Notes under the pieces: model-generated | Databases searched by the model: none | What the model was told of the DNA's origin: nothing | The model's input: the letters and a program-made list of their open reading frames with translations, nothing else | Made by a program: the position numbers and the translations under genes | Shown here: piece by piece, positions 46,414 to 64,000 of the stretch | Layout of the letters: each line of letters starts with the position of its first letter | Numbering within the stretch: the stretch's first letter is position 1 | Assembly: GCF_009996735.1 (NCBI RefSeq) | Contig: NZ_JAACYI010000007.1 | Location: 62,001 to 126,000, forward strand | Length of the DNA: 64,000 nt | Reading direction: 5' to 3' | Origin: Cellulomonas sp. APG4 | GTDB lineage: Bacteria > Actinomycetota > Actinomycetes > Actinomycetales > Cellulomonadaceae

Positions 46414-46440
46414 TCAGCTCTCCGGGCGACGCGGGCGGGG

Positions 46441-46477: not shown

Positions 46478-46672
46478 TCAGCGGCGGTCGCCGGCCGTGC
46501 TGTCGTGATGGTCACGCGGTGAGCATCCTGAGCGGGCGTCGTCGCCCACATCACCCTGACGCGGCGACCGGCGGCTACCACCGCGGCAGTAGAGGCGGGA
46601 CCCTCTGGGGGGCTGTCCCCCGAGTTCCGGCTCGGGATGATCCGAAGCGCCCGTGGACCGAGTCCCGGTACC

Positions 46673-46678
46673 TAGGCT
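46673..46678 (+). promoter_or_regulatory. -10 box, leaderless promoter of the hydrolase-GT4 pair
   Basis: TAGGCT ends 7 nt before ATG 46686 and no Shine-Dalgarno sequence is present. This is the third example in the window of the same spacing. Confidence 0.5.
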
Positions 46679-46685
46679 CAGGCCG

Positions 46686-48670: not shown

Positions 48671-48676
48671 GCACCG

Positions 48677-49012
48677 TCACCTTCCGGTGTCGCGCCCCAA
48701 GTACCGGAGGACGGCGAGCACGCGCCTGTGGTCCGCGGTGTCGGGTGTCAGCTCCAGCTTCGAGAAGATCGACGCGACGTTCTTCTCGACCGCCCCGTAC
48801 GACAGGTACACGAGTCGCGCGATCGCGCCGTTGGACCGCCCCTGCGCCATGAGCGCCAGCACCTCGCGCTCGCGCTCGGTGAGCCGTTCGAGACGGTCGT
48901 CGGAGCGCTGCGTGCGCTGAACGTGCGGATGGCCAGGCTGCGCCACGGGGCTGGTCCGCCCGTTCGGGCCATGGACGGGCGTCTCCCGTCGAAGGTGCGC
49001 GCTGATCGTCAT
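48677..49012 (-). CDS. Orphan LuxR-type DNA-binding domain (probably truncated response regulator)
   Basis: The protein has 111 residues from ATG 49012. Only the C-terminal LuxR helix-turn-helix is present: LTEREREVLALMAQGRSNGAIARLVYLSYGAVEKNVASIF and the following helices. The first ~45 residues are low-complexity and show no receiver-domain motifs. Close homologues of this HTH normally sit behind a ~120-residue receiver domain, so this is either a shortened stand-alone regulator or a decayed gene. It is convergent with the GT4 gene, 6 bp apart. Confidence 0.65.
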   Translation of the reverse strand: MTISAHLRRETPVHGPNGRTSPVAQPGHPHVQRTQRSDDRLERLTEREREVLALMAQGRSNGAIARLVYLSYGAVEKNVASIFSKLELTPDTADHRRVLAVLRYLGRDTGR

Positions 49013-49097
49013 GAGCCGATCCTCGCGACCGGCGCGCACGCCCACATCGCCTCTGTGCGGCACCTCCTGCGTACCGCCGCAGCCGTAGGCGGCGGGG

Positions 49098-49679
49098 TCA
49101 GCGTCCGCCCGAGAAGGGCGCCAGGGCGTCGGGGATCAGGTCGTCGAGCTGTCCGGGGCGGATGACGCCGCAGCCGACGAGACCGGCGAGGCCCTGGAGC
49201 GTGGCGAGGAAGACCAGGCCGAGCCGCTCGGGATCGCGCACGGCGACCACGCCGTCGGCCTGGCCGCGACGGAACATCACGAGGATGGGCGCGAACGCGG
49301 ATGCGGCTGCCTTCCCCACGGCGGCTCCGGCCGGCCCGTGCTTGTGAGCGAACATCAGCTCGACCAGGTTCGCCTCGGAGATCATGAAGTCCAGATGGGC
49401 CTCTGCGACCGACCGGAGCTGTGCGCGATAGTCGGACGACGTGTCGAGGGCATCCCGCAGCCGGGTCCCGAGCCGGGCGAAGCCCTCGACGGCCACGGCG
49501 TCCAGCAGATCCTGCCTGCCGGGGAAGTGCCGCCGCGGCGCGGCGTGGGTGACACCGACGGTCGCCGCGATCTCGCGGAGCGAGAGCTCGGCGGCTCCCC
49601 TGTCCCGGACCACCGTCGCGGCCTCGTCCAGGACCGCCTGACGCAGGTTGCCATGATGGTAGCGGCGGGCGGAGGTCAT
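49098..49679 (-). CDS. TetR family transcriptional regulator
   Basis: The protein has 193 residues from ATG 49679; longer versions of the frame would run through the tRNA remnant and are not credible. The N-terminal HTH reads YHHGNLRQAVLDEA and LSLREIAATVGVTHAAPRRHF, and a TetR_C_33-like ligand domain follows. It is the last normal gene before the presumed island boundary. Confidence 0.9.
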   Translation of the reverse strand: MTSARRYHHGNLRQAVLDEAATVVRDRGAAELSLREIAATVGVTHAAPRRHFPGRQDLLDAVAVEGFARLGTRLRDALDTSSDYRAQLRSVAEAHLDFMISEANLVELMFAHKHGPAGAAVGKAAASAFAPILVMFRRGQADGVVAVRDPERLGLVFLATLQGLAGLVGCGVIRPGQLDDLIPDALAPFSGGR

Positions 49680-49735
49680 GACTGCCGCTGTATCCGTCGG
49701 CCATGGGCGCGGGGGTCTGCCCACCAGACAGCGAG

Positions 49736-49765
49736 AGGCCCGCACCGCCGAAGCGGTGCGGGCCT
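49736..49765 (-). terminator. UUCG-tetraloop terminator of the tRNA-Pro locus
   Basis: A perfect 13-bp stem (49736-49748 with 49753-49765) closes on UUCG when read on the minus strand. It starts 20 nt after the 3' end of the tRNA remnant, where the terminator of the original tRNA gene is expected. Confidence 0.85.
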
Positions 49766-49785
49766 TCCGACCTGCTGTTTCACTG

Positions 49786-49827
49786 TCGGGATGACAGGAT
49801 TTGAACCTGCGACCCCTTGACCCCCAG
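49786..49827 (-). pseudogene. 3' half of tRNA-Pro(GGG), truncated at the anticodon loop (att site)
   Basis: Read on the minus strand, the 42 nt give the anticodon loop CTGGGGG (anticodon GGG), the 3' anticodon stem TCAAG, a variable loop, the T-arm GCAGG-TTCAAAT-CCTGT, the 3' acceptor strand CATCCCG and discriminator A. The 5' half (acceptor CGGGATG, D-arm, CTTGA) is missing upstream; the sequence there is unrelated. This is the typical displaced 3' end left when a tyrosine-recombinase element integrates in a tRNA gene. The native terminator remains on the left, so the inserted DNA lies to the right (higher coordinates). Confidence 0.82.
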
Positions 49828-49830
49828 GCT
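49819..49830. repeat. 12-bp inverted repeat, left copy (partner at 52739-52750)
   Basis: GACCCCCAGGCT at 49819-49830 is the exact reverse complement of 52739-52750. The two copies bracket the three-gene amino acid importer. The left copy spans the breakpoint of the tRNA remnant. It could be chance in GC-rich DNA. Confidence 0.5.
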
Positions 49831-50380
49831 CCCCCGCGCGGTTGGCCGACCGTATTCGCAGCGCCGTTTGTGCAGGTCAGGTGTCCTTTCGCGTCCAGCC
49901 GCGTCCGAGATTGCCCACCCCGTCTTAGCCTAGTTAGGCTGTCACTTTGGCAGTCAAGGCGGACCCCATGATGGTGCAGCCTGGACGACGTCACCGTCAC
50001 CCAGGCCTCGGCCGTGTGGGAGTTGCGCGCCTCCTCCCCGACGCGTCGCGTCGGCAGGTCTTCTCCCGCGCGGGGAACCTCCGGCTTTCCTAGCTGCATC
50101 ACCCATTTGCGTGCGGCCACGCGCTGGGCTGTGGTGGACTACGCCCATGGGCCCCTTCGTGTCTCGTGTGTCGTGTCGTGCCGGCCATGTGCGCACGTCG
50201 TGTTGTCCGGGACCCCGCGCCCACTGAGCCCGACGTCTCCGACCGGACCTGAACCGGTCTGCCACCGCGCGAGCCCCCGATTGGCCGATGCCTCGGCATG
50301 CGGGAATTCCCTGCGCGCTCACTCGTGTTGCCCACCCGTTGGAGCGTCACTCGACGCTTGCCGTCTCCCGAAGGACCACC
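49828..50380. other. 553-bp non-coding region at presumed island edge
   Basis: No supported gene is seen; open frames are arginine-rich shadows. It contains a palindrome at 49927-49940, a short hairpin at 50241-50259 and the promoter and leader of the amino acid importer. No integrase or integrase remnant was seen. A SAM-type riboswitch was considered and not supported. Confidence 0.5.
49927..49940. promoter_or_regulatory. Palindrome resembling a DtxR/MntR-family operator
   Basis: AGCCTAGTTAGGCT has perfect 6-bp arms around GT and is preceded by TT. The TTAGCCTA/TTAGGCT halves resemble, but do not match exactly, the TTAGGTTAG-CTAACCTAA box of DtxR/IdeR proteins. It lies 440 bp before the next plus-strand gene, so the target is unclear. 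Confidence 0.35.
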
Positions 50381-51211
50381 ATGACCAGGTTTTCTCGAGT
50401 TCTGTCCCTGAGCGCGGTCGTGACCGCCGCGGCTCTGGCCACCGCCGGCTGCTCGGCCGCTGACGACGACGCCGCCCCCGACACCACCGCGGGTTCGCAG
50501 GGCGACACGTCGTGGGTCGACGTCCAGGAGGCTGGCGTCCTGGTGGTCGGCACGGAGGGCACCTACCGGCCGTTCTCCTTCCACGAGGACGGGTCCGGTG
50601 ACCTGGTCGGCTACGACGTGGAGGTCATCCAGGCGGTAGCCGACGAGCTCGGCGTCGAGGTGGAGTTCCAGGAGACCCAGTGGGACGCCATCTTCGCCGG
50701 CTTGGAGGCGGGTCGGTTCGACGTCATCGCTAACCAGGTGTCGATCACCCCGGATCGCGAGGAGTCGTACACGTTCACCGAGCCGTACACGGTCTCGAAC
50801 GGCGTGGTCGTGGTTCGCGCGGACGACGACTCGATCAGCTCGTTCGAGGACCTCGACGGCAAGACCACCGCGCAGTCGCTGACGAGCAACTGGCACGCGC
50901 TGGCGAAGGAGAACGGGGCGCAGATCGAGGCGGTGGAGGGCTGGGCCCCGGCCGTGGCTCTGGTGGAGCAGCGCCGGGTCGACGCCACGATCAACGACGA
51001 GCTGACGTTCCTCGACTACGCGCAGAACAACGACGCCTCAGGACTGAAGGTCGCGGCGGAGACCACGGACCAGTCCTTCAGCGCGTTCGCCCTCGCCCAG
51101 GGGCATGAGGAGCTCGCGCGTGCGATCGACGAGGCGCTCGCCACGCTGGCGGACGACGGCACCCTTGCGGCGATCTCCGAGAAGTACTTCGGTGCCGACG
51201 TCTCCCGCTGA
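50381..51211 (+). CDS. Polar amino acid ABC transporter substrate-binding lipoprotein
   Basis: The protein has 276 residues from ATG 50381 with AAGGA upstream. The signal peptide ends in lipobox TAGC. The family 3 binding domain has LVVGTEGTYRPFSFHED, GYDVEVIQAVADELG, FAGLEAGRFDVIANQVSITPDREESYTFTEPY and a late LDGKTTAQS. This resembles cystine- or glutamine-type binders (FliY/TcyA-like). It delivers the amino acid to the downstream permease. Confidence 0.92.
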   Translation: MTRFSRVLSLSAVVTAAALATAGCSAADDDAAPDTTAGSQGDTSWVDVQEAGVLVVGTEGTYRPFSFHEDGSGDLVGYDVEVIQAVADELGVEVEFQETQWDAIFAGLEAGRFDVIANQVSITPDREESYTFTEPYTVSNGVVVVRADDDSISSFEDLDGKTTAQSLTSNWHALAKENGAQIEAVEGWAPAVALVEQRRVDATINDELTFLDYAQNNDASGLKVAAETTDQSFSAFALAQGHEELARAIDEALATLADDGTLAAISEKYFGADVSR

Positions 51212-51231
51212 CCAGTGCGGGAGAAGGTGAC

Positions 51232-51900
51232 GTGAGCCCGGAGACGCTCGAGCTCCTGACCAGCTCCTTCTGGCCGATGGCGCGGGGGGCGATCACCGGC
51301 ACGATCCCGTTGGCCCTAGTGTCCTTCTCCCTCGGCCTGGTGATCGCGCTGGTGGTCGCCCTCATGCGCCTGTCGAAGCGCCGGTGGCTCTCGCGGCCGG
51401 CGCGGGCGTACGTGTCGGTCGTCCGCGGGACGCCGCTGCTCGTGCAGCTGTTCGTGATCTTCTACGGGCTGCCGTCGATCGGTGTGGTGATCGACCCGTG
51501 GCCCAGTGCCGTGGTGGCGTTCTCGGTGAACGTGGGTGGCTACGCCGCCGAGGTGATCCGGGCGGCGATCCTCTCCGTGCCCAAGGGGCAGTGGGAGGCG
51601 GCCCACATGGTGGGCATGTCCCACGCCGTCGCCCTGCGCCGGATCGTCCTGCCGCAGGCCGCGCGAGTCTCGGTGCCGCCGCTGTCCAACACGTTCATCA
51701 GCTTGGTCAAGGACACGTCGTTGGCGTCCCTGATCCTCGTGACCGAGCTATTCCGCGAGGCTCAGCAGATCGCGGCGTTCAGCGGGCAGTTCATGGTGCT
51801 GTACCTCGAGGCTGCCGCCCTCTACTGGGTGATCTGCCTGGTGCTGTCCGCCGGGCAGAGCCGTCTCGAGCAACGATTGGATCGCTATGTCGCCCGGTGA
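51232..51900 (+). CDS. Polar amino acid ABC transporter permease (HisM/TcyB-like)
   Basis: The protein has 222 residues from GTG 51232 after GAGAAGG. It has five transmembrane helices; the family signature YVSVVRGTPLLVQLFVIFYGLP and the EAA loop (EAAHMVGMSHAVALRRIVLPQA) are clear. It overlaps the ATPase gene by 14 bp. A single permease implies a homodimeric channel. Confidence 0.94.
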   Translation: MSPETLELLTSSFWPMARGAITGTIPLALVSFSLGLVIALVVALMRLSKRRWLSRPARAYVSVVRGTPLLVQLFVIFYGLPSIGVVIDPWPSAVVAFSVNVGGYAAEVIRAAILSVPKGQWEAAHMVGMSHAVALRRIVLPQAARVSVPPLSNTFISLVKDTSLASLILVTELFREAQQIAAFSGQFMVLYLEAAALYWVICLVLSAGQSRLEQRLDRYVAR

Positions 51901-52705
51901 CCACGACGTCCTGGAGCCCCCGGGCGGCCACCCCGCGCCCGGGGAGCCCGGCGAGCCCGTCCTCGTGGTGGACGGGCTCGGCAAACGGTTCGGCGACCAC
52001 GAGGTGCTGCGGTCGGTGGACCTCCGGGTGCGACGCGGCCAGGTGCTCGCCGTCATCGGCCCCTCCGGCTCGGGCAAGACCACCGCACTTCGGTGCCTCA
52101 ACGGTCTGGAGATCCCGGACACCGGGCGTGTCGCCGTGGGCTCGGAGCTCGTCGTGGACTTCTCTGGCGGCGCCTCCCGCGCTGAGATCGCGGCCTTGCG
52201 GGACCGTTCCGCGATGGTGTTCCAGCACTACAACCTGTTCCCGCACAAGACCGTCCTGGAGAACGTGCTGGAGGGGCCGGTCGTCGTCCAGCGGCGGCCC
52301 CGCGCCGAGGTCACCGTTGAGGCCGTGGAGCTGCTGCGGCGCGTGGGGCTGGCCGACAGGAAGGACGCCTACCCGTTCGAGCTGTCCGGCGGGCAGCAGC
52401 AGCGCGTGGGCATCGTGCGGGCCCTGGCCCTTCGCCCCACCCTCCTGCTCTTCGACGAGCCCACGTCCTCGCTGGACCCTGAGCTGGTCGGAGACGTCCT
52501 GGGACTCATCAAGGAGCTCGCGGACGAGGGCTGGACCATGGTGATCGTCACCCACGAGCTCCAGTTCGCCCGGGAAGTCGCCCACGAGGTCGCCTTCATC
52601 GACGGCGGGACGGTCGTCGAACACGGGCACCCCGACCAGGTGCTGCGCGACCCACGCGAGGAACGCACCCGGCAGTTCGTCCAACGCCTCCTGCACCCCT
52701 TCTGA
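51887..52705 (+). CDS. Polar amino acid ABC transporter ATPase (GlnQ-like)
   Basis: The protein has 272 residues. A Pro/Gly-rich N-terminus of ~25 residues precedes the ABC domain: Walker A GPSGSGKTT, Q-loop VFQHYNLFPHKTVLENV, signature [12 protein letters not shown], Walker B LLFDEPTSSLDPE and VTHELQFAREV. This is the standard GlnQ/TcyC form energising the single permease upstream. Confidence 0.95.
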   Translation: MSPGDHDVLEPPGGHPAPGEPGEPVLVVDGLGKRFGDHEVLRSVDLRVRRGQVLAVIGPSGSGKTTALRCLNGLEIPDTGRVAVGSELVVDFSGGASRAEIAALRDRSAMVFQHYNLFPHKTVLENVLEGPVVVQRRPRAEVTVEAVELLRRVGLADRKDAYPFELSGGQQQRVGIVRALALRPTLLLFDEPTSSLDPELVGDVLGLIKELADEGWTMVIVTHELQFAREVAHEVAFIDGGTVVEHGHPDQVLRDPREERTRQFVQRLLHPF

Positions 52706-52738
52706 TCGCCATGATGGAAACGGCGGTCCGCACTGTGA

Positions 52739-52750
52739 AGCCTGGGGGTC
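52739..52750. repeat. 12-bp inverted repeat, right copy (partner at 49819-49830)
   Basis: AGCCTGGGGGTC is identical to the minus-strand sequence across the tRNA-Pro breakpoint at 49819-49830. Confidence 0.5.
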
Positions 52751-52760
52751 TGGACCCCAG
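52742..52760 (+). terminator. Imperfect hairpin after the amino acid importer
   Basis: CTGGGG (52742-52747) pairs with CCCCAG (52755-52760), extended by TC/GA, 36 nt after the ATPase stop. The stem is short for a terminator in this genome and overlaps the right copy of the 12-bp inverted repeat. Confidence 0.4.
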
Positions 52761-53293
52761 CAGGAACATCGGACGCGGCACGCTGAGGACCACAGGGGCG
52801 CGGAGCCCATCGTCCTGCGCCCATCACAGGTCGCCGCGGTAGCCCGTCCAAGCGCGGTGCGTTCGAGGGACGGCATCTTCAGTGAACCTTGACCATTCCC
52901 GAACGAACAGCACGGGATTGGCGCGCAATCGTGGGCACCTGCATCGGTTCACGGTCCTGCGAGAGGGCGGCCATGGCGCGTCGAACACCTAAACGGCGAT
53001 CCTCGGGCACGCGCAAGCCCCCAGCGGCGCCTCGAGCAGCGAGCCCACCCACGCCTGGTGGGTTGCGCGATCCGATCCGTGACCCGGCAGAGGCTTCGAC
53101 CCTTTCGTTGCCGATCCGCTTCCCCCTCCTGGGAGCCCACACGCCGGGCGCTTCTCAGCCGCGGGTGCCGCCGTCGGGCGTGACCCGGCCGAGGATCAGC
53201 GGCACCGCCGCTAGCCAGACCTCCGGCGCCACTTCCGCCAAGGCGACTCCGAGTCAGGCCCCTGGTCCGGCACCTCTGCCTCCGACACATCCC
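52761..53293. other. 533-bp region with no supported gene
   Basis: An open frame continuous with the Lgt-like gene runs through much of it (from 52889) but encodes a Pro/Ala/Arg/Ser/Thr-rich sequence with no motifs. It may be a disordered N-terminal extension or non-coding. No terminator, integrase or repeat was seen. Confidence 0.4.
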
Positions 53294-54415
53294 ATGCCAA
53301 GGCTCGCACGGGTAGGCGGTGCGGGGGGCCGCGCCAGCGCCTTGGAGTTCGTCGCGTCACCCTTCCCGGTCGTGGACGGGCTCGGCCCGCATGCCCTGGG
53401 CATCACCTACTGGTTCGACCCTCCAGCGACGTCGGGTCCCCACCAGGTGGCGGTCCGCCTCACCGGCCGTCGGCTCGACGTCGACGAACCCCGGACCCCC
53501 GCCGACGACTTCGCCACTGTGGCGAGGCTCGCTGAGGTGCGACCAGACAGCGGCCGGACGGCCCTGACGCACCGCGTTGTCGGTAAAGCGGCCGGGCGCT
53601 GGCACGTGACGGCGGACGCCGTGGCCACGGTCAAGTCTGGTCGCGACCGCCCGGACGTGGTGCGACTACCCTCCGCTGAAGCCGCTGGAGAATCGACATT
53701 CGCGACCGTTGCGACCATGCGGGCACCCGGGGTGCTGCTGGGTGCCTGGCCCGCGATGGTCGTGCTCGGCGTCACGCTGGCCCTGATCCTGCAGAGCGTC
53801 TTGGCTCGGGCGCACGGCCTCGCGTCGGCCAACGTTCTGGTTGTTGCGCTCGTGGCCAGCGTGCTTGGCGCAATCGGGGCCAAGGGCTACTACCGACTGA
53901 CTCACATGAAGGAGCGCACCAGGCTCTCGCTCTCGGGCCTGAGCGTTCAAGGTTTCGTGATCGTCGCAACCGCGACGTTCATCATTGGTGGGGCGATCCA
54001 AGGTCTTGCTGTCGGGCACCTCCTGGATGCCACGGTGCCCGCCCTGCTCGTCGGTCAGGCGGTCGGCCGGCTCGGCTGTCTACTGGCCGGGTGCTGTGCA
54101 GGCGTACCGACCACCTCCCGATGGGGTGTGTGGTCCTCCGACCGTCGCGTGGGCACCCGTCGCGTGCCGGTTCAACTGATGGAGGCGGCTGCGGCCGCAA
54201 CCCTGGCGGTAGCGACGACTGTTCTCGCCTGGCGCACGCCGACGTCATCGGGAGGTCTTCTCTTCGTCGCCGGCGTTGCCGGGTACGTCGTCGTACGCCA
54301 GCTTCTCTTTCCCCTTCGCGGGCTCCCGCGCTCCACCCCGCATGGCCGCCAGGTCACCTTGGCGCTGGCACTGGTGACCCTGGCCGGCGCCCTGGCGGCG
54401 ACCCTGCTCGGTTGA
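53294..54415 (+). CDS. Lgt-like membrane protein with soluble N-terminal domain
   Basis: The protein has 373 residues from ATG 53294; an upstream extension of up to 135 low-complexity residues is possible. Residues 1-135 form an unassigned, beta-rich-looking soluble domain. The rest has about seven helices and the region GQAVGRLGCLLAGCCAGVPT, the counterpart of the GRxGN(F)xNxE core of prolipoprotein diacylglyceryl transferase, followed by VPVQLMEA. The GCCAG form marks a divergent Lgt-like group rather than housekeeping Lgt. It may modify lipoproteins or another thiol substrate at the membrane. Confidence 0.72.
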   Translation: MPRLARVGGAGGRASALEFVASPFPVVDGLGPHALGITYWFDPPATSGPHQVAVRLTGRRLDVDEPRTPADDFATVARLAEVRPDSGRTALTHRVVGKAAGRWHVTADAVATVKSGRDRPDVVRLPSAEAAGESTFATVATMRAPGVLLGAWPAMVVLGVTLALILQSVLARAHGLASANVLVVALVASVLGAIGAKGYYRLTHMKERTRLSLSGLSVQGFVIVATATFIIGGAIQGLAVGHLLDATVPALLVGQAVGRLGCLLAGCCAGVPTTSRWGVWSSDRRVGTRRVPVQLMEAAAAATLAVATTVLAWRTPTSSGGLLFVAGVAGYVVVRQLLFPLRGLPRSTPHGRQVTLALALVTLAGALAATLLG

Positions 54416-54550
54416 GCGCCCCTTGCTCATGCACCCGCGCTGCCTCGATCCAGCACAGCGGAGGGGACATGTGCCTGGCCTGTGTGCTCGTCGCCCCGGT
54501 CTCGGTGGGCGGCGCATCGTCGCGTGGTGACAGGACTGGGGCGGGGTGGG

Positions 54551-57500
54551 TCATTGCTGCTCAGCGCACGGGCCGGTGCGGCTCCCCTGCCTCCCGGCTC
54601 GGCCTTCCTCCTCGGGTTGCCACCCGTCTGCCGCGCGGCGGAAGCGGTGGACGCTGCCTGGGGTCAGTGCGCGCACGTGCTCGTCCACCCGCAGTCGGAT
54701 CCGCGCGTCGCTCACGCCTGGATTGGAGGCGACGGTCAGGCTCTTGTCGTCGATCGCGATCTCCAGGCGCTGTCCGCGGTGCTGGGTGCTGAACCGAAGA
54801 CCACGCTGCCTGGCGGGCAGGGCGGGGTCCAGGACGACGTTGGGGCCCTCGGTGCGTAGTCCGGCGAAGGAACGCATGAGGATGTCGATCGTGCCAGCCA
54901 TGGCGCCGAGGTGGATGCCTTCCTGGGTCGTTCCGCCCTGGGTGTCGTCCAAGTCGGCGGCCAGGGCTTCGCGGAAGACGTCCCAGCCGCGGGTCGGATC
55001 CAGGCCGGCGAGGACCGAGGCATGCACCACTCTGCTCAGCGTGGAGCCGTGCGCGGTGCGGGCAAGGTAGTAGTCGACGGTGCGGGTCAGCGCCTGACGG
55101 GTTGTGGGGTAGCCAAGCCGGTCCAGCATCCCCAGCAGCGTGTCGGGCCCAAGGAGGTAGGCGAGCATGAGGACGTCGGCCTGCTTGGCGACCTTGTACC
55201 GGTTCGTGGTGTCGCCCTCGGCCTCGAGAATCAGGTCTAGGCGGCCGATGTTGCCGTACCGGCGGCGGTAGAGGCCCCAGTCCAGCTCGGCGAGATCGTC
55301 GTAATCTGCGAACTGGCCGATGACACCGTCGCGGAGGAACGGCACGCTCATGCGTCGACTCAGGTGCTGCCAGGCAGCCCTCTCCTCGGGCCGGATCTGA
55401 AGGCGGGCGTGGACGTCGTCACACCCGTGCCCGGTCACCTCGCGAAGGACGTCGACGGCGCGCTGGCACACCCACGCGGTGAGGACGTTCGTGTAGGCGT
55501 TGTCGGTCAGGCCCGCCCCGGGATCGTCGGGGTAGCCGTCGTGGTACTCGTCCGGGCCCATCACCCCCCGGATGTGGTAGCGGTCGTCGACGGTGTCGTG
55601 GCTCGCCATGGCGGTGAAGAGGCGGGCGACCTCGATGATGAGGTCAGCGCCACGCTCCGCGAGCCAGGCAGCATCACCCGTGGCCTGGTAGTACTGCCAG
55701 GCGTTGACCGCGACGGCGAGCCCGACGTGACGCTGCCGATGAGAGTTGTCCGGCATCCAGCGGCCCGAGCGACTGTTGAACAGCATCACCGGTGTCTCTT
55801 CGCGGCCGTCGCTGCCGGACTGCCACGGGAACATCGCCCCGGGGAGCCCTTCCCGGGCCGCAGCCCGCCGCGCGGCATCCAGCCGGCGCCACCGGTAGTC
55901 CAGCAGACCGCGACTGACCTGCGGCAGGTAGGCGGTGAGCACTGGCAGGACGAACAGCTCGTCCCAGAAGACGTGTCCGCGGTAGCCCTCGCCGTGCAGG
56001 CCGCGGGCCGGTACGCCGGTGTCGAGCTCGGAAGTGTGCACCGAGAGGGTCTGCTGCAGGTGGAACAGGTGCAGGTTGAGCACGAGGCCGGTCTGGGTGT
56101 CGGCGTCCAGCTCGACACCGAAGCGCTTCCATAACCGCTCCCACGCGGCAGCGTGAGGGCCGAGAAGGTCCTCTAAGCCGCCCGACGTCGCGTCGAGCTC
56201 CCCGAACACGGCCGACAGGGGCGAAGCAATGGCAGGGTCACGCGAGGACACGGCCGCTACCGCCTTGTCGATGGTGACCGGCGCGCCGTCGGTGACCGCT
56301 ACCTCAAGGGCGTGCCAGTGCAGATCTCCGTCGTGCTCCAGGACGGCGTCCGGTGCTGCTTGGTCGACGGTGGTCAGGGCCCCCACCGCGATGTGGATCT
56401 GGCTCTGCAGTGTCGTGACCTCCACCACCAGCCTGCCCGGTCCGGCGTCGTGGACACCGGTGGTGCGCAGGTGACGGTTGGCCAGGGCGGCGTACTCGGC
56501 GACGTTGGCGTTGACCACGCCGGCATCGATGCCGGAGCGCACTCGCAGAGTCCCGCTCCACCCCTCGGGCACGACCGTGGTCTCCAGCGCCGCGACGTGC
56601 CGGCGAGCCATGGAGACGATGCGCCGCTGCCGAAGACGCATCCGCCGGCCGGCGCCGTCGGTGAGCACCGCGGTGCGGGTGAGCACTCCGCGGCGCAGGT
56701 CGAGCTCGCGCCGCTCGTCGGTGGCCGTCAGTCCGCCGGCGGACCACCACGGTCCTTCGGTGGCGAGGTCGAGAACCAGCCAGTTCGGCGCATTGACCAG
56801 GCTCTCGTCCTCCACCTGGCGGCCATGGACCGTGGAGACCAGGCGGTTGTAGACACCGGCGAGGTAAGTCCCGGGGTAGTGCACCCCGTCCGCACCACGC
56901 TCCGGTGCCGCGCCCCGGGCGCCGAGGTAGCCGTTGGCAAGGGTCGTCAACGCCTCACGATGACCCTCGTGGGCGGGGTCGAAACCCTCATACACCAGCG
57001 TCCACGGGTCGGCCCGGAGGGCACCAAGGTCGAGCTGCGCGACATCCTCCACGACCAGATGAGCGCCGGCGTCCTCGAGTTCGCTCCGCTGCCCGGCCCG
57101 GGCTACGCCAACCACGAGCCCGAAGCCCCCTCGCCTGGCAGCCTGAACGCCGGCGACGGCGTCCTCCACCACCGCAACCCGGTCCGGGGATACCCCCAGC
57201 TCGTGCGCCGCCTGGAGGAAGGTGGCGGGGTCGGGCTTGCCCGCCAGGCCGAGCTCGCCGGCACGCTCGCCGTCCACAACGACGTCGAAGGCCCCGGACA
57301 GACCTGCGGCCGTCAGCAGGGCCGCAGCGTTGCGGCTCGCCGTGACCAGCGCGACCGGCACACCACCGGCCCGCAACCGCTCGAGCAGGCCGACCGTGCC
57401 GGGGAACGCCTCAACGCCTCGGTCGGCGATCAGATGGAGGTAGATCTCGTTCTTCCGCGCCCCCAGCCCGTGCACCGTCCACTCCCCCGCGGCGTCTTGT

Positions 57501-57808
57501 CGCGTCCCCAGGGGAATGTCGAGGCCGCGGGCGGCGAGGAAGGCGGCAACCCCGTCCTCCCGGGCGCGTCCGTCGACGTAGCGCCGGTAGTCCGCGTCCG
57601 TATCGAACGGCTCTGCGGAGGCCGCCCCCGCTGTGCGTGGATCGGCGAGCACCATGTCGAAGAGCTGTCGCCACGCCTCGGCGTGCAGTGTGGCGGTGTC
57701 GGTGACCACACCGTCCATGTCGAAGATCACGGCCTCCTGCGGCGGTAGAGCCCCAGTCGGGGCAGGCGCGCGCAAGGAGCCCCCAGGCTCTGGCGTCGGA
57801 TGTCTCAC
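54551..57808 (-). CDS. HAD (beta-phosphoglucomutase-like)-GH65 fusion, disaccharide phosphorylase
   Basis: The protein has 1085 residues from GTG 57808 with GGAGG upstream. Residues ~25-255 form a HAD hydrolase: DMDGVVTDT nucleophile region, VTASRNAA, KPDPATF and EDAVAGVQAA, as in beta-phosphoglucomutase. Residues ~270-1060 form a family 65 glycoside phosphorylase: N-terminal beta-sandwich, (alpha/alpha)6 barrel with general acid Glu754 in MGPDEYHDG, and the phosphate loop TTQEGIHLGAMAGT near 970. It would phosphorolyse trehalose, maltose or kojibiose to glucose and beta-glucose-1-phosphate, and the fused mutase converts the latter to glucose-6-phosphate. Confidence 0.93.
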   Translation of the reverse strand: MRHPTPEPGGSLRAPAPTGALPPQEAVIFDMDGVVTDTATLHAEAWRQLFDMVLADPRTAGAASAEPFDTDADYRRYVDGRAREDGVAAFLAARGLDIPLGTRQDAAGEWTVHGLGARKNEIYLHLIADRGVEAFPGTVGLLERLRAGGVPVALVTASRNAAALLTAAGLSGAFDVVVDGERAGELGLAGKPDPATFLQAAHELGVSPDRVAVVEDAVAGVQAARRGGFGLVVGVARAGQRSELEDAGAHLVVEDVAQLDLGALRADPWTLVYEGFDPAHEGHREALTTLANGYLGARGAAPERGADGVHYPGTYLAGVYNRLVSTVHGRQVEDESLVNAPNWLVLDLATEGPWWSAGGLTATDERRELDLRRGVLTRTAVLTDGAGRRMRLRQRRIVSMARRHVAALETTVVPEGWSGTLRVRSGIDAGVVNANVAEYAALANRHLRTTGVHDAGPGRLVVEVTTLQSQIHIAVGALTTVDQAAPDAVLEHDGDLHWHALEVAVTDGAPVTIDKAVAAVSSRDPAIASPLSAVFGELDATSGGLEDLLGPHAAAWERLWKRFGVELDADTQTGLVLNLHLFHLQQTLSVHTSELDTGVPARGLHGEGYRGHVFWDELFVLPVLTAYLPQVSRGLLDYRWRRLDAARRAAAREGLPGAMFPWQSGSDGREETPVMLFNSRSGRWMPDNSHRQRHVGLAVAVNAWQYYQATGDAAWLAERGADLIIEVARLFTAMASHDTVDDRYHIRGVMGPDEYHDGYPDDPGAGLTDNAYTNVLTAWVCQRAVDVLREVTGHGCDDVHARLQIRPEERAAWQHLSRRMSVPFLRDGVIGQFADYDDLAELDWGLYRRRYGNIGRLDLILEAEGDTTNRYKVAKQADVLMLAYLLGPDTLLGMLDRLGYPTTRQALTRTVDYYLARTAHGSTLSRVVHASVLAGLDPTRGWDVFREALAADLDDTQGGTTQEGIHLGAMAGTIDILMRSFAGLRTEGPNVVLDPALPARQRGLRFSTQHRGQRLEIAIDDKSLTVASNPGVSDARIRLRVDEHVRALTPGSVHRFRRAADGWQPEEEGRAGRQGSRTGPCAEQQ

Positions 57809-57872
57809 GGGCTCCTCCGATCTGTTCGCCGGCCCGGTGCTGCCTCCAGCCGGGGTCGAGCCCTCCAGCGGG

Positions 57873-58838
57873 TCAGTGGTGGGGCCGAAGCGGGGACTGG
57901 GACGTCGGCGTCGGGGCGGTGGACCGCCATCGGGGGCGCAACGCGACCCACATGGCCGCCAGCACCGCGGTCAGGCCCGCAGCCGTCCAACCGCCGGGGC
58001 GCTCTCCCAGGACGACGGCGGCCAGCAGGATGCCAAGGACGGGTGTCAAGAAGGTCCACGTGGTCAGCGTGTCGAGGCGGCTGCGGCGGACCTCGGTGAA
58101 CCAGGCAACCGTTGTCGCCGCAGTGCCTACCAGTGCCAGGAACGCCAGCGACAGCACGAAGCGTGGGGTCCACGCCACCTCAGGGGCGCCCTCCACGGCT
58201 GCCGCGACGGCGGCGAGCACCACCCCGCCGATGACCAGGTGCCAGCCGGTGGCGGTGATCACGTCCATCCCGCCCAGGCGACGGGAGAGCAGGGTCCCAC
58301 CGGTCACGGCGGCCGCGGAGAGCAGCGACAGCGCCGCCCCGCCACCCCCACCCCCGGGCACGGCTACCAGGACTAGGCCCGCGAAACCAACCGCAAGCGC
58401 GGTCGCTGTCCGGATCGAGAGTCTCTCGCCGTAGAGCCACCAGGCGGGCAGCAGGATCAGAAGTGGCTGGGCGTTGGCCAACACCGCGGCGGTGCCCGCG
58501 GCACCACCGGCCACCCCAGCGAACATCGCCGCGAAGGCCACCGTGACATTCACGAGGCCCAGAACGGCGAGGAGCATCCAAGCGTTCCTGCCGCGGGGGG
58601 TCGGCCGGTGCCACGCCGCTCCCAGGGCCAGCAGCGCCAGGCCGGCCACCAGAGCACGCAGTGCCGCGAACCAGAGCAGCGGGGCATCGCGCAGCCCCCA
58701 GTCGATGAGGACGAAGCACACCGCCCCCGCCGCGGTGATCCACAGCATGCGACCCCACCGTGGGCTCGCCATCGCCCCGCCCTCCACCGCGGGCGAACCG
58801 CGGGGAGCCACCGCTGCGCGGTCCACGCCGACCGGCAT
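57873..58838 (-). CDS. EamA/DMT-family transporter
   Basis: The protein has 321 residues from ATG 58838; an internal ATG (residue 23) is also possible. Ten transmembrane helices form two EamA repeats; ANAQPLLILLPAWWLYGERLS and TFLTPVLGILLAAVVLGERP are the paired family motifs. Export of an amino acid or metabolite is usual, and the substrate is unknown. It starts 1 nt after the stop of the copper ATPase gene upstream, so it is probably in the same transcript. Confidence 0.88.
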   Translation of the reverse strand: MPVGVDRAAVAPRGSPAVEGGAMASPRWGRMLWITAAGAVCFVLIDWGLRDAPLLWFAALRALVAGLALLALGAAWHRPTPRGRNAWMLLAVLGLVNVTVAFAAMFAGVAGGAAGTAAVLANAQPLLILLPAWWLYGERLSIRTATALAVGFAGLVLVAVPGGGGGGAALSLLSAAAVTGGTLLSRRLGGMDVITATGWHLVIGGVVLAAVAAAVEGAPEVAWTPRFVLSLAFLALVGTAATTVAWFTEVRRSRLDTLTTWTFLTPVLGILLAAVVLGERPGGWTAAGLTAVLAAMWVALRPRWRSTAPTPTSQSPLRPHH

Positions 58839-58839
58839 G

Positions 58840-61302
58840 TCAGCTGACCCCGGCGGGGGCCGGTGCCGCCGGCTCCGGCTCGCGTGCCGTGCCCTGCGGC
58901 GCGGCCGGAGTCTGCTGCGCCGGCAGCCGGAGCCGCTTGAGCAATAGCGCGTTGACCGTCACGACGACCGTCGAGCCCGACATCGACAGGGCCGCGATCT
59001 CCGGGCGCAGCATCAGGCCGAACGCGGGGTAGAACACCCCGGCGGCGATCGGCAGTGCCAGGGCGTTGTATGCGATCGCCCAGGCCACGTTCTGCCGTTC
59101 CTTGCGCACCGTGCCCTTGCCGATGCGTAGCGCCACGGACACGTCCAGGGGGTCCGAACGCATCAGGACGATGTCCGCGGTCTCGATCGCAACGTCGGTC
59201 CCCGCGCCGATCGCGATGCCGATGTCCGCCTTGGCCAGCGCGGGGGCGTCGTTGACGCCGTCGCCGACCATCGCCACGGTCTTGCCGGCCTGCTGCAGCT
59301 CGGCGACCTTCTCCGCCTTGTCGCCGGGAAGGACCTCGGCGATGACGGTGTCGATGCCGAGCTGCTCGGCGATGCGCTGAGCGGTCGCCTCGTTGTCTCC
59401 TGTGAGCATGACCACCTCGATCCCGGACTCGTGCAGCGCGGCGACCGCCGCCGCCGCCGTCTCGCGGGCGGCGTCGGCCAAAGCGATGACCCCGACCCCG
59501 CGTCCGTCCACCGCGACGAGTACCGCGGTGCGACCGGACGCCGCCAGCTCGTCCCGGCTCGCAGCCAGATCGCCGAGCTCCACGCCTTCTTTCGCCATGA
59601 GGCGGAGGTTGCCCACCAGCACCCGCCGCCCGTCGACCACTGCCGTCGCGCCATGTCCCGGCACATTCAGGAACTCGCTGACCTCCCGCCCGGGCACACC
59701 CAGCCGAGCGGCGTGGCTCTCGATGGCCCGGGCCAGGGGGTGCTCGGACTCCCGTTCGACGGCAGCGACCAGGGCGAGCATCTCCTCCTCGCTCATGCCC
59801 GCCACGACGACGTCGGTGACCTCCGGCTCCCCCTTGGTCAGGGTGCCTGTCTTGTCCAGGACCACCGTGTCGATCCGCGCAGTGCCCTCCAGGGCGGTCG
59901 CGTTCTTGAACAGCACCCCGCGCCGCGCCCCCACACCGGTGCCCACCATGATCGCCATGGGTGTCGCGAGTCCGAGGGCATCGGGGCAGGTGATGACCAC
60001 GACCGTGATCGCGAACAGCATCGCCAGGGCCACACCGGCACCGGCGAGCATCCACACCGCGAACGTCGTGCCGCCGGCGACGAGGGCGACGAACACCAGC
60101 CAGAACGCGGCGCGGTCGGCCAGGCGCTGCCCGGGGGCCTTGGAGTTCTGCGCCTCCTGGACCATCTTGACGATCTGCGCCAACGCCGTGTCCGCGCCGA
60201 CCTTCGTGGCCCGTGCCCGCAGGGTCCCCGTGGTGTTGATCGACGCACCGATCAACTGAGCCCCCGGCGCCTTCTCCACCGGCATGGACTCCCCGGTCAC
60301 CATGGACTCGTCGACCTCGGACTCCCCCTCCTCCACCACGGCGTCGACCGGGATCTTCGAGCCCGGCCGCACCAGCAGCAGGTCACCGACGACGACCTCA
60401 GACGTCGGGACCTCCACCGGCTCGCCGTCGCGGAGCACGACCGCCTGGGACGGGGCGAGCTCGAGCAACGTGCGCACGGCGTCGTTCGCTCCGCCCCGGG
60501 CTCGCATCTCCAGCCAGTGCCCGAGGAGCACGAAGGTGGTCAGAACCGTGGCCGCCTCGTAGAAGACCTCTCCCCCGCCGGTGAAGGTCACCACCAGGCT
60601 GTACAACCAGCCCGCGCCGACGCCCACCGCGACCAGGACCATCATGTCCAGCGTCCTGGCCCGCAACGCCCGGTAGGCGCCGTCGAAGAAGATCCACGCC
60701 GAGTAGAACACCACCGGCAAAGACAAGATCAGCGAGAAGACATCGTCACGCAGACCGAACGGCGCCGGAAGGGTGAACCCCAGGACCTCGCGCCCGATCG
60801 GCGACCAGAACAAGATCACCACTGACAGGACGGCCGCGACCAGGAACCGGTTGCGCATGTCCCGGGTCATGTCCGCCATCGACCCGCCGTGCCCGCCATG
60901 GCCCATCGCCTCCTGTGCGGACTGACCGGTCGGTGCGTCGCCGTCCTTGTCCCCGTGCCCGGTGTCCCCGTGCCCAGCGGCCCCGTGCGTGCCATGGCCC
61001 TCGGCCCCCGTGCGGGTGTCGTCTGGGGTCCGGGCCTCGGTCGACGCCGGCTCCGTCATCGGGTGGCACATGTGACCCGGTACGGACTGCCCCGCACAGT
61101 GGTACCCGCACTCGTTGACCCAGCTCACCAGCTGGGCGATGGAGGTCTCGTCCGGGTCGTAGGTGACCGTCGCCGTCTGCGAGACGGCGCTGGCCTCGAC
61201 GGCCAGCACTCCTCCCTGGCGCATCAGGGTCTTCTCGATGACCGACTCGGAGGTGGCCCAGTGCAGACCGCCCACCTCCAGCACAGTGGATTGGCGTTTC
61301 AT
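58840..61302 (-). CDS. P1B-type heavy-metal ATPase with CPD motif and His-rich N-terminus
   Basis: The protein has 820 residues from ATG 61302 (AAGGA ~10 nt upstream; GTG 61311 is also in frame). It has an HMA-like N-terminal domain lacking the CxxC (GGLHWATSE in its place) but ending ECGYHC, then a His/Gly-rich stretch (~85-145) and eight TM helices. TGES is in the actuator, Cys439-Pro-Asp in the metal-binding helix, phospho-Asp483 in DKTGT, HP in SEHPLARA and GDGVNDAP. The CPD in place of CPC or CPH is non-canonical. With CsoR and a second ATPase nearby, copper or silver export is most likely. Confidence 0.92.
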   Translation of the reverse strand: MKRQSTVLEVGGLHWATSESVIEKTLMRQGGVLAVEASAVSQTATVTYDPDETSIAQLVSWVNECGYHCAGQSVPGHMCHPMTEPASTEARTPDDTRTGAEGHGTHGAAGHGDTGHGDKDGDAPTGQSAQEAMGHGGHGGSMADMTRDMRNRFLVAAVLSVVILFWSPIGREVLGFTLPAPFGLRDDVFSLILSLPVVFYSAWIFFDGAYRALRARTLDMMVLVAVGVGAGWLYSLVVTFTGGGEVFYEAATVLTTFVLLGHWLEMRARGGANDAVRTLLELAPSQAVVLRDGEPVEVPTSEVVVGDLLLVRPGSKIPVDAVVEEGESEVDESMVTGESMPVEKAPGAQLIGASINTTGTLRARATKVGADTALAQIVKMVQEAQNSKAPGQRLADRAAFWLVFVALVAGGTTFAVWMLAGAGVALAMLFAITVVVITCPDALGLATPMAIMVGTGVGARRGVLFKNATALEGTARIDTVVLDKTGTLTKGEPEVTDVVVAGMSEEEMLALVAAVERESEHPLARAIESHAARLGVPGREVSEFLNVPGHGATAVVDGRRVLVGNLRLMAKEGVELGDLAASRDELAASGRTAVLVAVDGRGVGVIALADAARETAAAAVAALHESGIEVVMLTGDNEATAQRIAEQLGIDTVIAEVLPGDKAEKVAELQQAGKTVAMVGDGVNDAPALAKADIGIAIGAGTDVAIETADIVLMRSDPLDVSVALRIGKGTVRKERQNVAWAIAYNALALPIAAGVFYPAFGLMLRPEIAALSMSGSTVVVTVNALLLKRLRLPAQQTPAAPQGTAREPEPAAPAPAGVS

Positions 61303-61344
61303 GATCTTCACGTCCTTGCCCGGCCTCGTGGCCGATCGATGGTG

Positions 61345-61363
61345 CTCCGCGCCTGGCGCGGAG
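61345..61363 (-). terminator. Hairpin after the type II GAPDH gene
   Basis: CTCCGCGCC (61345-61353) is complementary to GGCGCGGAG (61355-61363), 30 nt after the GAPDH stop and 42 nt before the ATPase start on the minus strand. It may reduce read-through into the ATPase gene rather than stop it completely. Confidence 0.5.
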
Positions 61364-61392
61364 GGTGTCCCTCATGGCCCGTCAGGCGGGCC

Positions 61393-62436
61393 TCACGCGG
61401 AGGGGTCGGGCAGGAAGTCGCGGCGCATGCCCAGGACCTCGTCGGTCGTGGCGATCGAGGTGGCGCCGTCGGTCACGGTCCCGGCCAGCGCCCGGATGGC
61501 GTCGATCGTCTCGGGGATGACGATCGACTCGTTGTTGACCTGGTAAGTCAGGTATGCCTCGTCCCCCTCAACGGTCAGGACGTCCTCCCACACGGCGACC
61601 TCCCACATGTCCCCGCGTGGCCGGCCCAGGTCGCGCATCAGCTCGACCGTGGTGTTCGAGGCGGTCAGCCCGTCCGCCATGCGGATGAAGGCGATCCGCG
61701 GCGCAGCACGCAGAGCCTCGAGAACCTCCTCGCGGCTGGCCACTCGGGTCAGCTGCAGGGTCCAGAAGTGGGTGTGGGTCTGGGTGTGGGCGGCCTTGGC
61801 CGCGATGGTCACGACGTCCAGGTCGGGCCGCACCGTGCGGGCGTCCGGGCCCTGATGTGAGGGGATGGAGCTCTCGGGCACCAGGGTGTTCATGATTCCG
61901 CCCTGGTGGGACTCTCCCGGGTCGGTGGCCCGACGGATCAGAACCCCGCGGGCGCGGGCGAGGAGGTCGGCGTCCTGCAAGGCCCCAAGGACACGCACGA
62001 TGCTGGTGGTGTTGCACGAGACCACCCGCGTGGTGTCCCGGCCGAGCGCCGTGGCGTAGTTGGCCTGGGCGACGAAGGAGTGGCCGGTGGTGGCGTGCGA
62101 CTCCCCTCCCTGGAAGACGGCCTTGACCCCGGCGGCCCGGTATGCCTCGAGGTTGAGTGCCGCGACCTTCTTCGGCGTCGTGTCCACCACCACGTCCACC
62201 TGGCTGAGCAGGTCGGCCACGGTGCCGGCCACCGGCATCCGGGCAGCCCGCATCGCGGTGCCCGCGTCCGTGGTGGCAGCGAACACGTCTAGGCCGAGCC
62301 CGACAGCGGTGCGCACCCGCCAGTCCGTGGCGACGTCCGCCACCCCGACCAGCTCCATGTCGGGCATGACGCGGACAGCATCCGCGACCCGCTTGCCGAT
62401 AACTCCGTAGCCGTTGACAGCAACCCTGATGTTCAT
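61393..62436 (-). CDS. Type II (archaeal-type) glyceraldehyde-3-phosphate dehydrogenase
   Basis: The protein has 347 residues from ATG 62436. The N-terminal NAD(P) fold VNGYGVIGKRVADAV is the archaeal GAPDH signature, different from bacterial GapA (NGFGRIGR). Catalytic Cys141 lies in SCNTTSIVRVL, and a late HQGPDARTV region and THTHFWTLQL strand are also family-typical. It would oxidise glyceraldehyde-3-phosphate to 1,3-bisphosphoglycerate. It sits between csoR and a copper-type ATPase, away from other glycolysis genes, which points to a metal-response role (inference). Confidence 0.9.
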   Translation of the reverse strand: MNIRVAVNGYGVIGKRVADAVRVMPDMELVGVADVATDWRVRTAVGLGLDVFAATTDAGTAMRAARMPVAGTVADLLSQVDVVVDTTPKKVAALNLEAYRAAGVKAVFQGGESHATTGHSFVAQANYATALGRDTTRVVSCNTTSIVRVLGALQDADLLARARGVLIRRATDPGESHQGGIMNTLVPESSIPSHQGPDARTVRPDLDVVTIAAKAAHTQTHTHFWTLQLTRVASREEVLEALRAAPRIAFIRMADGLTASNTTVELMRDLGRPRGDMWEVAVWEDVLTVEGDEAYLTYQVNNESIVIPETIDAIRALAGTVTDGATSIATTDEVLGMRRDFLPDPSA

Positions 62437-62532
62437 CCTGGCCTCCAGTACCTGTTCCGTATCGTGTGTTCTCTGAGTCGGCATCGCGGCCGGGGTTGTG
62501 CCGTGGTCGACGGCTGCAGTGGTTCTACCGTT

Positions 62533-62811
62533 CTAGCTGCGGACCAGGCGGGCGATCGCGTCGGCGGCTTCCTTGAGCTTGGCGTCCTTCTCGGGTCCGC
62601 CGACTTGGGCGGCGTCGACCAGGCAGTGGCCCATGTGATCCTCCAGCAGGCCCAGGGCCACACACTGCAGGGCCCGGGAGGCGGCCGAGACCTGGGTGAG
62701 GACGTCGATGCAGTACTTGTCCTCCTCGACCATGCGGGCGATGCCACGGACCTGACCCTCGATGCGGCGCAACCGGATGAGCAGGTCATGCTTGGAGTCG
62801 GTGTCGGTCAT
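62533..62811 (-). CDS. csoR: CsoR-family copper-sensing repressor
   Basis: This 92-residue all-helical repressor has the copper-binding trio Cys34 (KYCIDVL), His59 (LEDHM) and Cys63 (GHC) in the same spacing as Mycobacterium CsoR (36/61/65). GGAGG precedes the ATG. Copper binding releases it from DNA. It lies between the two metal ATPase genes and is the likely regulator of this block. No clear CsoR operator (GC-rich dyad around TACCC/GGGTA) was recognised in the short gaps beside it. Confidence 0.95.
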   Translation of the reverse strand: MTDTDSKHDLLIRLRRIEGQVRGIARMVEEDKYCIDVLTQVSAASRALQCVALGLLEDHMGHCLVDAAQVGGPEKDAKLKEAADAIARLVRS

Positions 62812-62831
62812 CAGATCCTCCTGCCGGAAGG

Positions 62832-62875
62832 CCCCCGGGGTGCCACCGCTGTCAGGTTCGGTGGCACCCCGGGGG
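62832..62875 (-). terminator. Perfect 16-bp terminator between ATPase-YHS gene and csoR
   Basis: 62832-62847 pairs perfectly with 62860-62875 (12-nt loop), 14 nt after the stop of the upstream ATPase gene. It separates csoR and the genes beyond from the ATPase-YHS transcript. Confidence 0.85.
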
Positions 62876-62888
62876 GGGCTCGTCCGAG

Positions 62889-64000
62889 TTAGGGCGCCAC
62901 CGCGGTGGCGTAGCGGGCGGGGTCGGCACGGAAGCTCTCCGCGCAGTGGGGGGAGCAGAAGTGGTACGTCGTGCCCTCGTGCTCGGCGGTGTCGGCCGCC
63001 GAGGCGGGGTCGATGCTCATCCGGCAGACCGGGTCGGTGACCTTCTGGGACTTCTCGGACATGGCGTGCTCCGTTCCTTCTTCATCGTCTTTCCCTATCT
63101 CCACCACCGGGTCGATGGCGGCGACCTGGACGGCCTCGGGCAGAGGCCGTGGGGTGAAGGTGCGCAGGCGATTGGCGTTGGCGACCACTGACAGCGAGGA
63201 CAAGGCCATAGCAGCCGCGGCGATGATCGGGCTGAGCATCAAGCCGAAAGTCGGGTACAACGCACCCGCGGCGATCGGGATGCCGATCGCGTTGTACATG
63301 AACGCGAAGACCAGGTTCTGACGGATGTTGCGCATGGTGGCCCGGGACAGGTCCACCGCCGTGACCAGGCCGGACAGCGCACCGGAGATCAAGGTGATGT
63401 CGGAGGACTCGATGGCCACGTCGGTGCCGGTGCCGATCGCCGATCCGACGTCGGCCTGGGCCAGGGCCGGTGCATCGTTGATGCCGTCCCCGACCATCCC
63501 GACCACACGGCCCTCCCCCTGGAGCCGCTTGACCTCGGCGGCCTTGTGCTCGGGCATGACCTCGGCCACCACGCGCCCGATGCCGACCTGACGGGCGATG
63601 GCCGCGGCCGTGGCCCGGTTGTCCCCGGTCATCATGATCACGTCGATGCTGCGCTTCTGCAGTGCCGCGATGGCGGCCGCTGAGCCTTCCTTCAGGGTGT
63701 CGGCCACGCCGACCACACCGGCGAACCGCCCGTCGACGACCACGAACATCGGGGTCTTGCCGTCGGCGGCGAGCCGGTCCGCGTCGCTGGTTCGGGCGGC
63801 GACGCCGACGCTGTCGAGAAGGCGTCGATTCCCGACCAGGACCTCGCGGCCCTGGACCAGGGCACGCACTCCTTGACCGGTCACGGAGTCGAATGCGCTC
63901 ACCTCCGGCAGTCGGATGCCGCTGTTGAGGGCGCCGGTCACGATGGCCGTAGCCAGGGGGTGCTCGGAGGAACGCTCCACCGCCGCGACGAGGGTGAGGA
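62889..64000 (-). CDS. P1B-type copper ATPase with C-terminal YHS domain, N-terminus beyond window
   Basis: The frame is open to the window edge; the visible ~370 residues are the C-terminal part. Seen are the ATP-binding SEHPLATAI, MTGDNRAT, GDGINDAPALAQADVG, and the last two transmembrane helices (QNLVFAFMYNAIGIPIAAG, AAAMALSSLSVVANANRL). After a charged linker, an in-frame Met begins a ~55-residue YHS domain (DPVCRM, YHFCSPHCAESF) with three Cys for metal delivery. YHS is more often N-terminal or a separate protein; here it is fused at the C-terminus, downstream of an internal ATG that could also yield a free YHS protein. Confidence 0.9.
   Translation of the reverse strand, partial: LTLVAAVERSSEHPLATAIVTGALNSGIRLPEVSAFDSVTGQGVRALVQGREVLVGNRRLLDSVGVAARTSDADRLAADGKTPMFVVVDGRFAGVVGVADTLKEGSAAAIAALQKRSIDVIMMTGDNRATAAAIARQVGIGRVVAEVMPEHKAAEVKRLQGEGRVVGMVGDGINDAPALAQADVGSAIGTGTDVAIESSDITLISGALSGLVTAVDLSRATMRNIRQNLVFAFMYNAIGIPIAAGALYPTFGLMLSPIIAAAAMALSSLSVVANANRLRTFTPRPLPEAVQVAAIDPVVEIGKDDEEGTEHAMSEKSQKVTDPVCRMSIDPASAADTAEHEGTTYHFCSPHCAESFRADPARYATAVAP

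Follow-up and report, generated by a model that had tools for sequence, protein, structure and literature searches.

The 64,000-nucleotide stretch of the Cellulomonas sp. APG4 genome analyzed here (the window, C46:62001-126000, C46 being one of the 48 contigs of a nearly complete 3.74-Mb assembly) holds the left end of a genomic island at a proline tRNA gene, tRNA-Pro(GGG). In our opinion it is very probable that this island is a decayed integrative and conjugative element (ICE) which now resembles a cis-mobilizable element (CIME) and carries a copper cargo. The evidence for site-specific insertion at tRNA-Pro(GGG) is strong, the main reservation being an unclosed gap inside the island. The origin as an ICE, the loss of the integrase after insertion and movement only with help are what we infer beyond that. 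As a kind of element this is an ordinary mobile island; it is the comparative evidence that is unusually full.

An earlier sequence-only reading of the window had proposed that a tRNA-Pro(GGG) gene is reduced here to its 3' half, cut at the anticodon loop and followed by a terminator with a UUCG loop, and it had predicted a direct repeat of a 42-nucleotide segment. These proposals hold up. ARAGORN calls no tRNA in the window, so the tRNA-Pro gene there is a fragment. It starts at nucleotide 33 of the tRNA, two bases 5' of the anticodon (which ARAGORN places at 35), and the 42-nucleotide segment had been placed correctly to within a base. Fragment and hairpin together occupy 49719-49827 on the minus strand. 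The hairpin itself (49737-49764) folds at -34.1 kcal/mol (z -5.5), and 0 of 200 shuffles fold equally well. A 37-base core of the fragment has two copies in the whole assembly with up to three mismatches allowed, both of them exact, and the reversed 37-base control pattern has 0 matches in the same assembly. The second copy, which is the predicted repeat, lies within an intact tRNA-Pro(GGG) on another contig (C22:6474-6548, minus strand). The two copies are identical over 50 bases from tRNA nucleotide 33 and 94% identical over 108 bases, the similarity extending through the terminator. No other intact tRNA-Pro(GGG) was found in the genome; the CGG and TGG isoacceptors are on C2 and C7.

The inserted DNA consists of C46:111828-145168 (33,341 bp), a gap and C22:1-6473 (6,473 bp), at least 39.8 kb in all. 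Its GC content is 70.0% in the C46 part and 70.3% in the C22 part against 73.5% and 73.9% in the flanks, which agrees with the accessory character that had been claimed for everything to the right of the fragment. The left boundary does lie inside the window at tRNA-Pro(GGG), as had been argued. The intact tRNA was expected beyond 64000 on the minus strand; it is indeed on the minus strand at the far end of the island, but on C22, across the gap, and not further along C46.

The orientation of the intact tRNA relative to the fragment across the contig gap depends on anchors in the flanks. On the C22 side, all 13 of the relatives' loci that were tested have a der-like homologue upstream of their intact tRNA-Pro(GGG). 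A homologue of the C22 membrane protein is at the same place in 11 of the 13, and other genes of the row are collinear within the stretches compared; the Na+/H+ exchanger and the mutase have no homologue upstream of the tRNA in these loci. On the C46 side, nrdJ has a strong match in 7 of the 8 relatives searched. In all seven the gene lies 3' of the tRNA, with the 3' half as the reference in G002. It has the orientation seen in this genome in five of the eight (G007, G008, G011, G012 and G002), at distances of 35-225 kb. Taken together, the der-like and nrdJ anchors make it probable from gene order that C46 and C22 are neighbours in the genome.

Both attachment (att) ends are retained, the repeat at each of them and a conserved arm on the window side. 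In relatives the arm spans ~140-160 bp between the 3' half and the integrase. Positions 49873-49979 match L092:14774-14880 of one relative (G015) at 80% over 107 bp (E 7e-17), and the integrase homology of that relative starts at L092:14766, next to the arm. When the arm of this genome was scored against the relatives' arms (150 bases, a fixed scheme, 200 simple shuffles each), the score was above the shuffle maximum for 14 of 14 arms. For G015a it was far above (136 against 13), and the margins were narrow for G003a (15.5 against 12), G003b (11.5 against 9.5) and G016 (20 against 19). The 5' flank of the tRNA, taken as a control, had a negative score.

The integrase had been expected beyond 64000, and it is found in neither assembled part. 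Its position in the lineage would be ~49980, which is empty of it and is occupied by a fragment of a yibE/F gene (the complete gene is PF07907). A search with 16 queries, among them a wrong-strand frame (L015) and a frame with a partial integrase (L058), gave no integrase remnant in 49700-64000, the best E among the matches listed being 0.12. Within the 2,200 bp adjoining the fragment, three lineage queries found no integrase at E 1e-3, and none of the 11 tyrosine-recombinase matches in the genome is within the assembled island. There is no TrwC relaxase match on C46 or C22 (other relaxase families were not searched), and the assembled island parts hold no recognisable integration, relaxase or conjugation genes. 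The pattern of a tyrosine-recombinase island that had been claimed stands as far as the tRNA geometry and the repeat go, and not for the integrase gene.

The relatives show how the site is used elsewhere. At least 11 of the 18 relatives in the genus (G002, G003, G007, G009, G010, G011, G012, G014, G015, G016 and G017) have an extra 3'-half copy with the same anticodon-loop start, and there is no extra copy among the matches listed for G001, G004, G005, G006, G008, G013 and G018. Our close look covered 14 copies in 10 genomes and left out G010 (where the intact tRNA is visible only in part, at a contig end), G003:C19 and the copies outside the genus except that of G023. An uninterrupted integrase of one lineage, 71-86% to the query integrases, stands at five of the 14 (G002, G007, G014, G012a and G015a), with homology that overlaps the fragment or starts no more than ~165 bp from it. 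G003a has an uninterrupted related integrase (~50%), broken or partial remains are seen at G012b, G003b, G011 and G015b, and G017b has a weak partial match (31-33% over ~100 residues). Four genomes (G012, G003, G015 and G017) have two extra 3'-half copies each, a tandem arrangement. The att end on C22 resembles those of G002, G012, G011 and G014 over 101-282 bp, terminator included. A search for the lineage integrase in 396 genomes of the order, drawn evenly, gave two at E <= 1e-60: G007 itself and G023 (64%), from another genus of the family, where the integrase again adjoins a tRNA-Pro 3' half with an identical start.

One of these elements, that of G014, is ICE-like, judging by its predicted genes. 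It spans ~45 kb and has a TrwC relaxase, a TraG/D-type coupling protein, a T2SSE-type ATPase and the integrase, as well as two Eco57I-type methylase genes and, close to the integrase, an HTH_17 protein. C22:721-2507 has homologues close to the tRNA: in G014 they adjoin the relaxase, and G002 has them for part of the stretch. Phage and plasmid collections contain no record with 60% identity or more to the integrase of G014, the 26 phage and 13 plasmid records that match it (E limit 1e-20) all being below that. In G009 (L055:9947-12413) ~2.3 kb lie between the intact tRNA-Pro and the 3' half, with the att arm conserved and no integrase, and by its layout this appears to be a second integrase-less case. 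The tRNA-Pro(GGG) of G013 (L093:11244-12769; from identical match positions probably Actinotalea ferrariae) has on its 3' side a different tyrosine integrase, with 28-32% identity to the lineage. The site may thus serve a second type of integrase.

The tRNA-Pro(GGG) gene beside the der-like gene is a recurrent integration hotspot of the genus, which here appears to include Actinotalea ferrariae, and it has an integrase lineage of its own. At this one site there are stages that range from an ICE-like element to islands without an integrase. This is of use when genomes of actinobacteria are annotated, and it supplies a natural pair of att site and integrase.

The history we propose begins with entry as an ICE of a Cellulomonadaceae lineage. 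The tyrosine integrase of that lineage would have recombined attP with the part of tRNA-Pro(GGG) that runs from the anticodon loop to the terminator. The element would have brought a replacement 3' part and terminator, so that the tRNA would stay functional. During decay, a rearrangement bringing the yibE/F fragment may have removed the integrase from its start onward. What remains is an IS21 pair, further insertion sequences (which we take to be IS3-, IS110- and ISL3-like) and the cargo of copper-resistance and amino-acid-import genes. Remobilization would then require a related integrase from elsewhere, such as another element inserting in tandem could bring, an arrangement that occurs in relatives. 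With its att ends kept and its recombination and transfer genes gone from the assembled parts, the island fits a CIME as defined in the available part of PMC5704250.

A number of observations weigh against this history. The fragment and the intact tRNA are on separate contigs, C46 ending 19,168 bases beyond the window, and the unclosed gap has a different type of insertion sequence at each edge and room for an integrase or a further att copy. The nrdJ gene is inverted and 230-340 kb off in G016 and G017, and G018 has no match to it. Left-flank genes at 42975-49704 have no counterpart at the matching place beside the relatives' tRNA, so no empty-site counterpart is seen for the junction. One left-flank gene, 33094-33666 (metallophosphoesterase-like by reading of its translation), matches the tRNA 5' side in G007, G011, G012 and G016. 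We read its position on the opposite side as a local rearrangement; in the two relatives checked, one G007 neighbour and no G011 neighbour of it matches the first 140 kb of C22. Three of the 14 copies in relatives (G017a, G016 and G009) lack an adjacent integrase of their own. In Actinotalea ferrariae CF5-4 a 21.6-kb contig holds the same cargo block, and tRNA-Pro(GGG) has its single match elsewhere in the genome, so the cargo need not have been acquired with the element.

Most of the doubt comes back to the gap. C19 begins with a further copy of the last 127 bases of C46, and C8 ends with one of the first 127 bases of C22. The end of C46 reads as a transposase C-terminus, and the start of C22 matches the 5' flank of transposases in relatives; from their translations, without a profile, we take the former to be IS110-like and the latter ISL3-like. 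A single insertion sequence bridging the two contigs was rejected, since the two edges belong to different elements, and on this reading the gap seems to hold parts of at least two elements. Because it is unclosed and bounded by repeats, one could argue that it hides the integrase and transfer genes of a still-mobile ICE or integrative and mobilizable element, and C44 does have a split TrwC relaxase match near another integrase. However, the lineage integrase adjoins the 3' half, and in this genome the assembly covers that junction and shows no such gene. The integrase on C44 shares only ~30% identity with those of the lineage, and the assembled island has none of the eleven recombinase matches. 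We consider this explanation improbable. The gap could also conceal the inner ends of a tandem of at least two tRNA-Pro elements, with just the outer ends present in the assembly, as the four relatives with two extra copies suggest. Only two core copies exist in the 48 contigs, though others may be hidden in unassembled repeats. We regard a tandem as unlikely but with a real chance of being right, and it is compatible with decay.

Transfer RNA fragments can also form via other routes. That the fragment is a remnant of chance or of segmental duplication instead of an integration scar is nevertheless extremely hard to believe: the break at the anticodon loop recurs in relatives, often beside integrases and with the conserved arm, and most flank relationships agree with insertion. 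The C44 locus itself (C44:104117-105078 and 107750-108277, with a TrwC match split over two frames and a tyrosine integrase ~2.7 kb away) is perhaps another decayed ICE in this genome.

A tRNA-Pro gene is also the target of pSAM2. The G014 relative of our island, with its TrwC relaxase and coupling protein, is unlike the replicating plan of actinomycete ICEs (AICEs); no search for an AICE replication gene was made. The likeness to pSAM2 and the actinomycete ICEs, as presented in the available part of PMC3218068, is that of actinobacterial elements that enter the 3' end of a tRNA gene via a tyrosine integrase. With the tRNA and tmRNA islands of Islander (PMC4383910, in the portion available) our island shares ends marked by an intact tRNA and a displaced 3' fragment, and a crossover in the anticodon-loop subsite. 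It differs from them in having no integrase in the assembled parts, in having its ends on separate contigs and in a repeat that runs through the terminator. According to the same portion the Islander filters include an integrase-gene test, so finders of this sort would be expected to miss this island. The likeness to CIMEs, as far as the accessible text of PMC5704250 describes them, lies in the att ends that are kept, in assembled parts where neither integration nor transfer genes were found, and in tandem elements, here seen in relatives. The differences are that cis mobilization of this island would be by analogy and that its gap is unclosed. A literature search for Cellulomonas with tRNA-Pro and genomic island found nothing, and the available part of PMC5644110 has a prophage beside tRNA-Pro(tgg).

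The cargo named by the sequence-only reading (the importer of three genes, the Lgt-like protein, the HAD-GH65 fusion, the first copper P-type ATPase, the CsoR-type repressor and GAPDH, glyceraldehyde-3-phosphate dehydrogenase) is supported by profiles, and is set out with the other features in the table.

Features of the island and its flanks (window positions unless a contig is named)
Feature	Position	Strand	Basis
nrdJ (B12-dependent ribonucleotide reductase), left-flank anchor outside the island	3175..6051	+	NF005122 1613 bits
Remainder of the ~108-bp direct repeat, including the UUCG-loop hairpin terminator	49719..49784	-	94% to C22:6409-6516
Displaced 3' part (nucleotides 33-75) of tRNA-Pro(GGG), att core	49785..49827	-	37-mer copies, intact C22 partner
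Attachment-site arm	49828..49979	-	in relatives sits between 3' half and integrase start
yibE/F gene fragment at the expected integrase start	49987..50029	+	second copy C46:131023-131065, 90.7% over 43 bp, E 1e-9
Solute-binding lipoprotein, family 3 (amino-acid importer)	50381..51211	+	PF00497, E 1.8e-42
ABC importer permease	51232..51900	+	PF00528, E 9.8e-30
ABC importer ATPase	51887..52705	+	PF00005, E 6.9e-33
Lgt-like membrane protein, start codon uncertain	52889..54415	+	PF01790, E 2.5e-22; below NCBIfam lgt cut-offs
Beta-phosphoglucomutase-type HAD fused to GH65	54551..57808	-	PF03632, PF03636, PF00702; TIGR02009 above cut-off
EamA transporter	57873..58838	-	PF00892
Copper-type P-type ATPase, N-terminal HMA domain	58840..61311	-	PF00122, PF00403; TIGR01511 above cut-off
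Type II (archaeal-type) GAPDH, start uncertain	61393..62484	-	NF003251 441 bits (cut-off 185); TIGR01546 316 (232.9)
CsoR/RicR-type repressor	62533..62811	-	PF02583; best NCBIfam RicR 131.6 bits, below cut-off 175
Second heavy-metal-type P-ATPase	62889..64000, continuing in C46	-	translation and similarity, without profile; 92% similar A. ferrariae gene
Second solute-binding protein, YibE/F, DUF305, third heavy-metal P-ATPase	C46, beyond window
Lgt-like, multicopper-oxidase-like and CopZ-like-start proteins	C46, beyond window		matches below NCBIfam cut-offs
Transposase gene (presumably IS3-like) broken by another transposase end (presumably IS110-like)	C46 right end		type names tentative
Two genes without Pfam match, Hypoth_Ymh protein, IS21 pair	C22 part
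Na+/H+ exchanger	C22, right of tRNA (tRNA 5' side)		PF00999
Phosphoglycerate-mutase-like gene, then membrane protein	C22, right of exchanger, tRNA 5' side
der, plsC-like, cmk, tyrA, rluB, scpB, scpA, parA	C22, further right		translation reading only
xerD	C22, end of der row		translation reading and PF00589

The cargo resembles the Micrococcales heavy-metal clusters with type II GAPDH, such as that of Actinotalea ferrariae CF5-4 (L106), where the genes that run from the importer permease up to the second P-ATPase are also present, in pieces at 80-90% DNA identity. The idea that A. ferrariae carries this block at its tRNA-Pro is unsupported, the tRNA-Pro(GGG) match being on one contig and without a second copy.

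The type II GAPDH sits between the CsoR-type and copA-like genes on the same strand (58840-62811). We compared it with the best 80 of 337 relatives in GTDB genomes, which are the closest ones, some on short contigs. A heavy-metal-type P-ATPase or CsoR is near the gene in 57 of these 80 and absent in 23 (tblastn E <= 1e-10, flanks up to ~10 kb), and CsoR itself matches in 14; the 57 of 80 were counted without a random-locus control and are indicative only. Of the loci without metal genes eight were viewed, and at several of them the translations of the neighbours suggest roles in general carbon metabolism or elsewhere. In Staphylococcus aureus, GAPDH is reportedly inhibited by copper (PMC6350627, in the part available), and a literature search pairing 'type II glyceraldehyde-3-phosphate dehydrogenase' with copper found nothing. 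It is tempting to guess that the island is an integrase-less att cassette, mobilizable in trans or by accretion, joined to a csoR / type II GAPDH / copA operon whose archaeal-type GAPDH would serve as a glycolytic bypass of the host's own GAPDH, inhibited by copper. We think this rather doubtful, and the bypass role is a guess, if a testable one. If it is true, metabolic insurance against copper would travel together with the copper pumps.

Two smaller observations concern the island's other content. The solute-binding gene is duplicated within it (50546-51192 against L012:2562-3208, 83.7% over 650 bp). At the end of C22 there is a truncated TIR domain (PF13676, L013:104-370) beside a sequence we take to be ISL3-like, and this fragment is possibly a broken defence gene.

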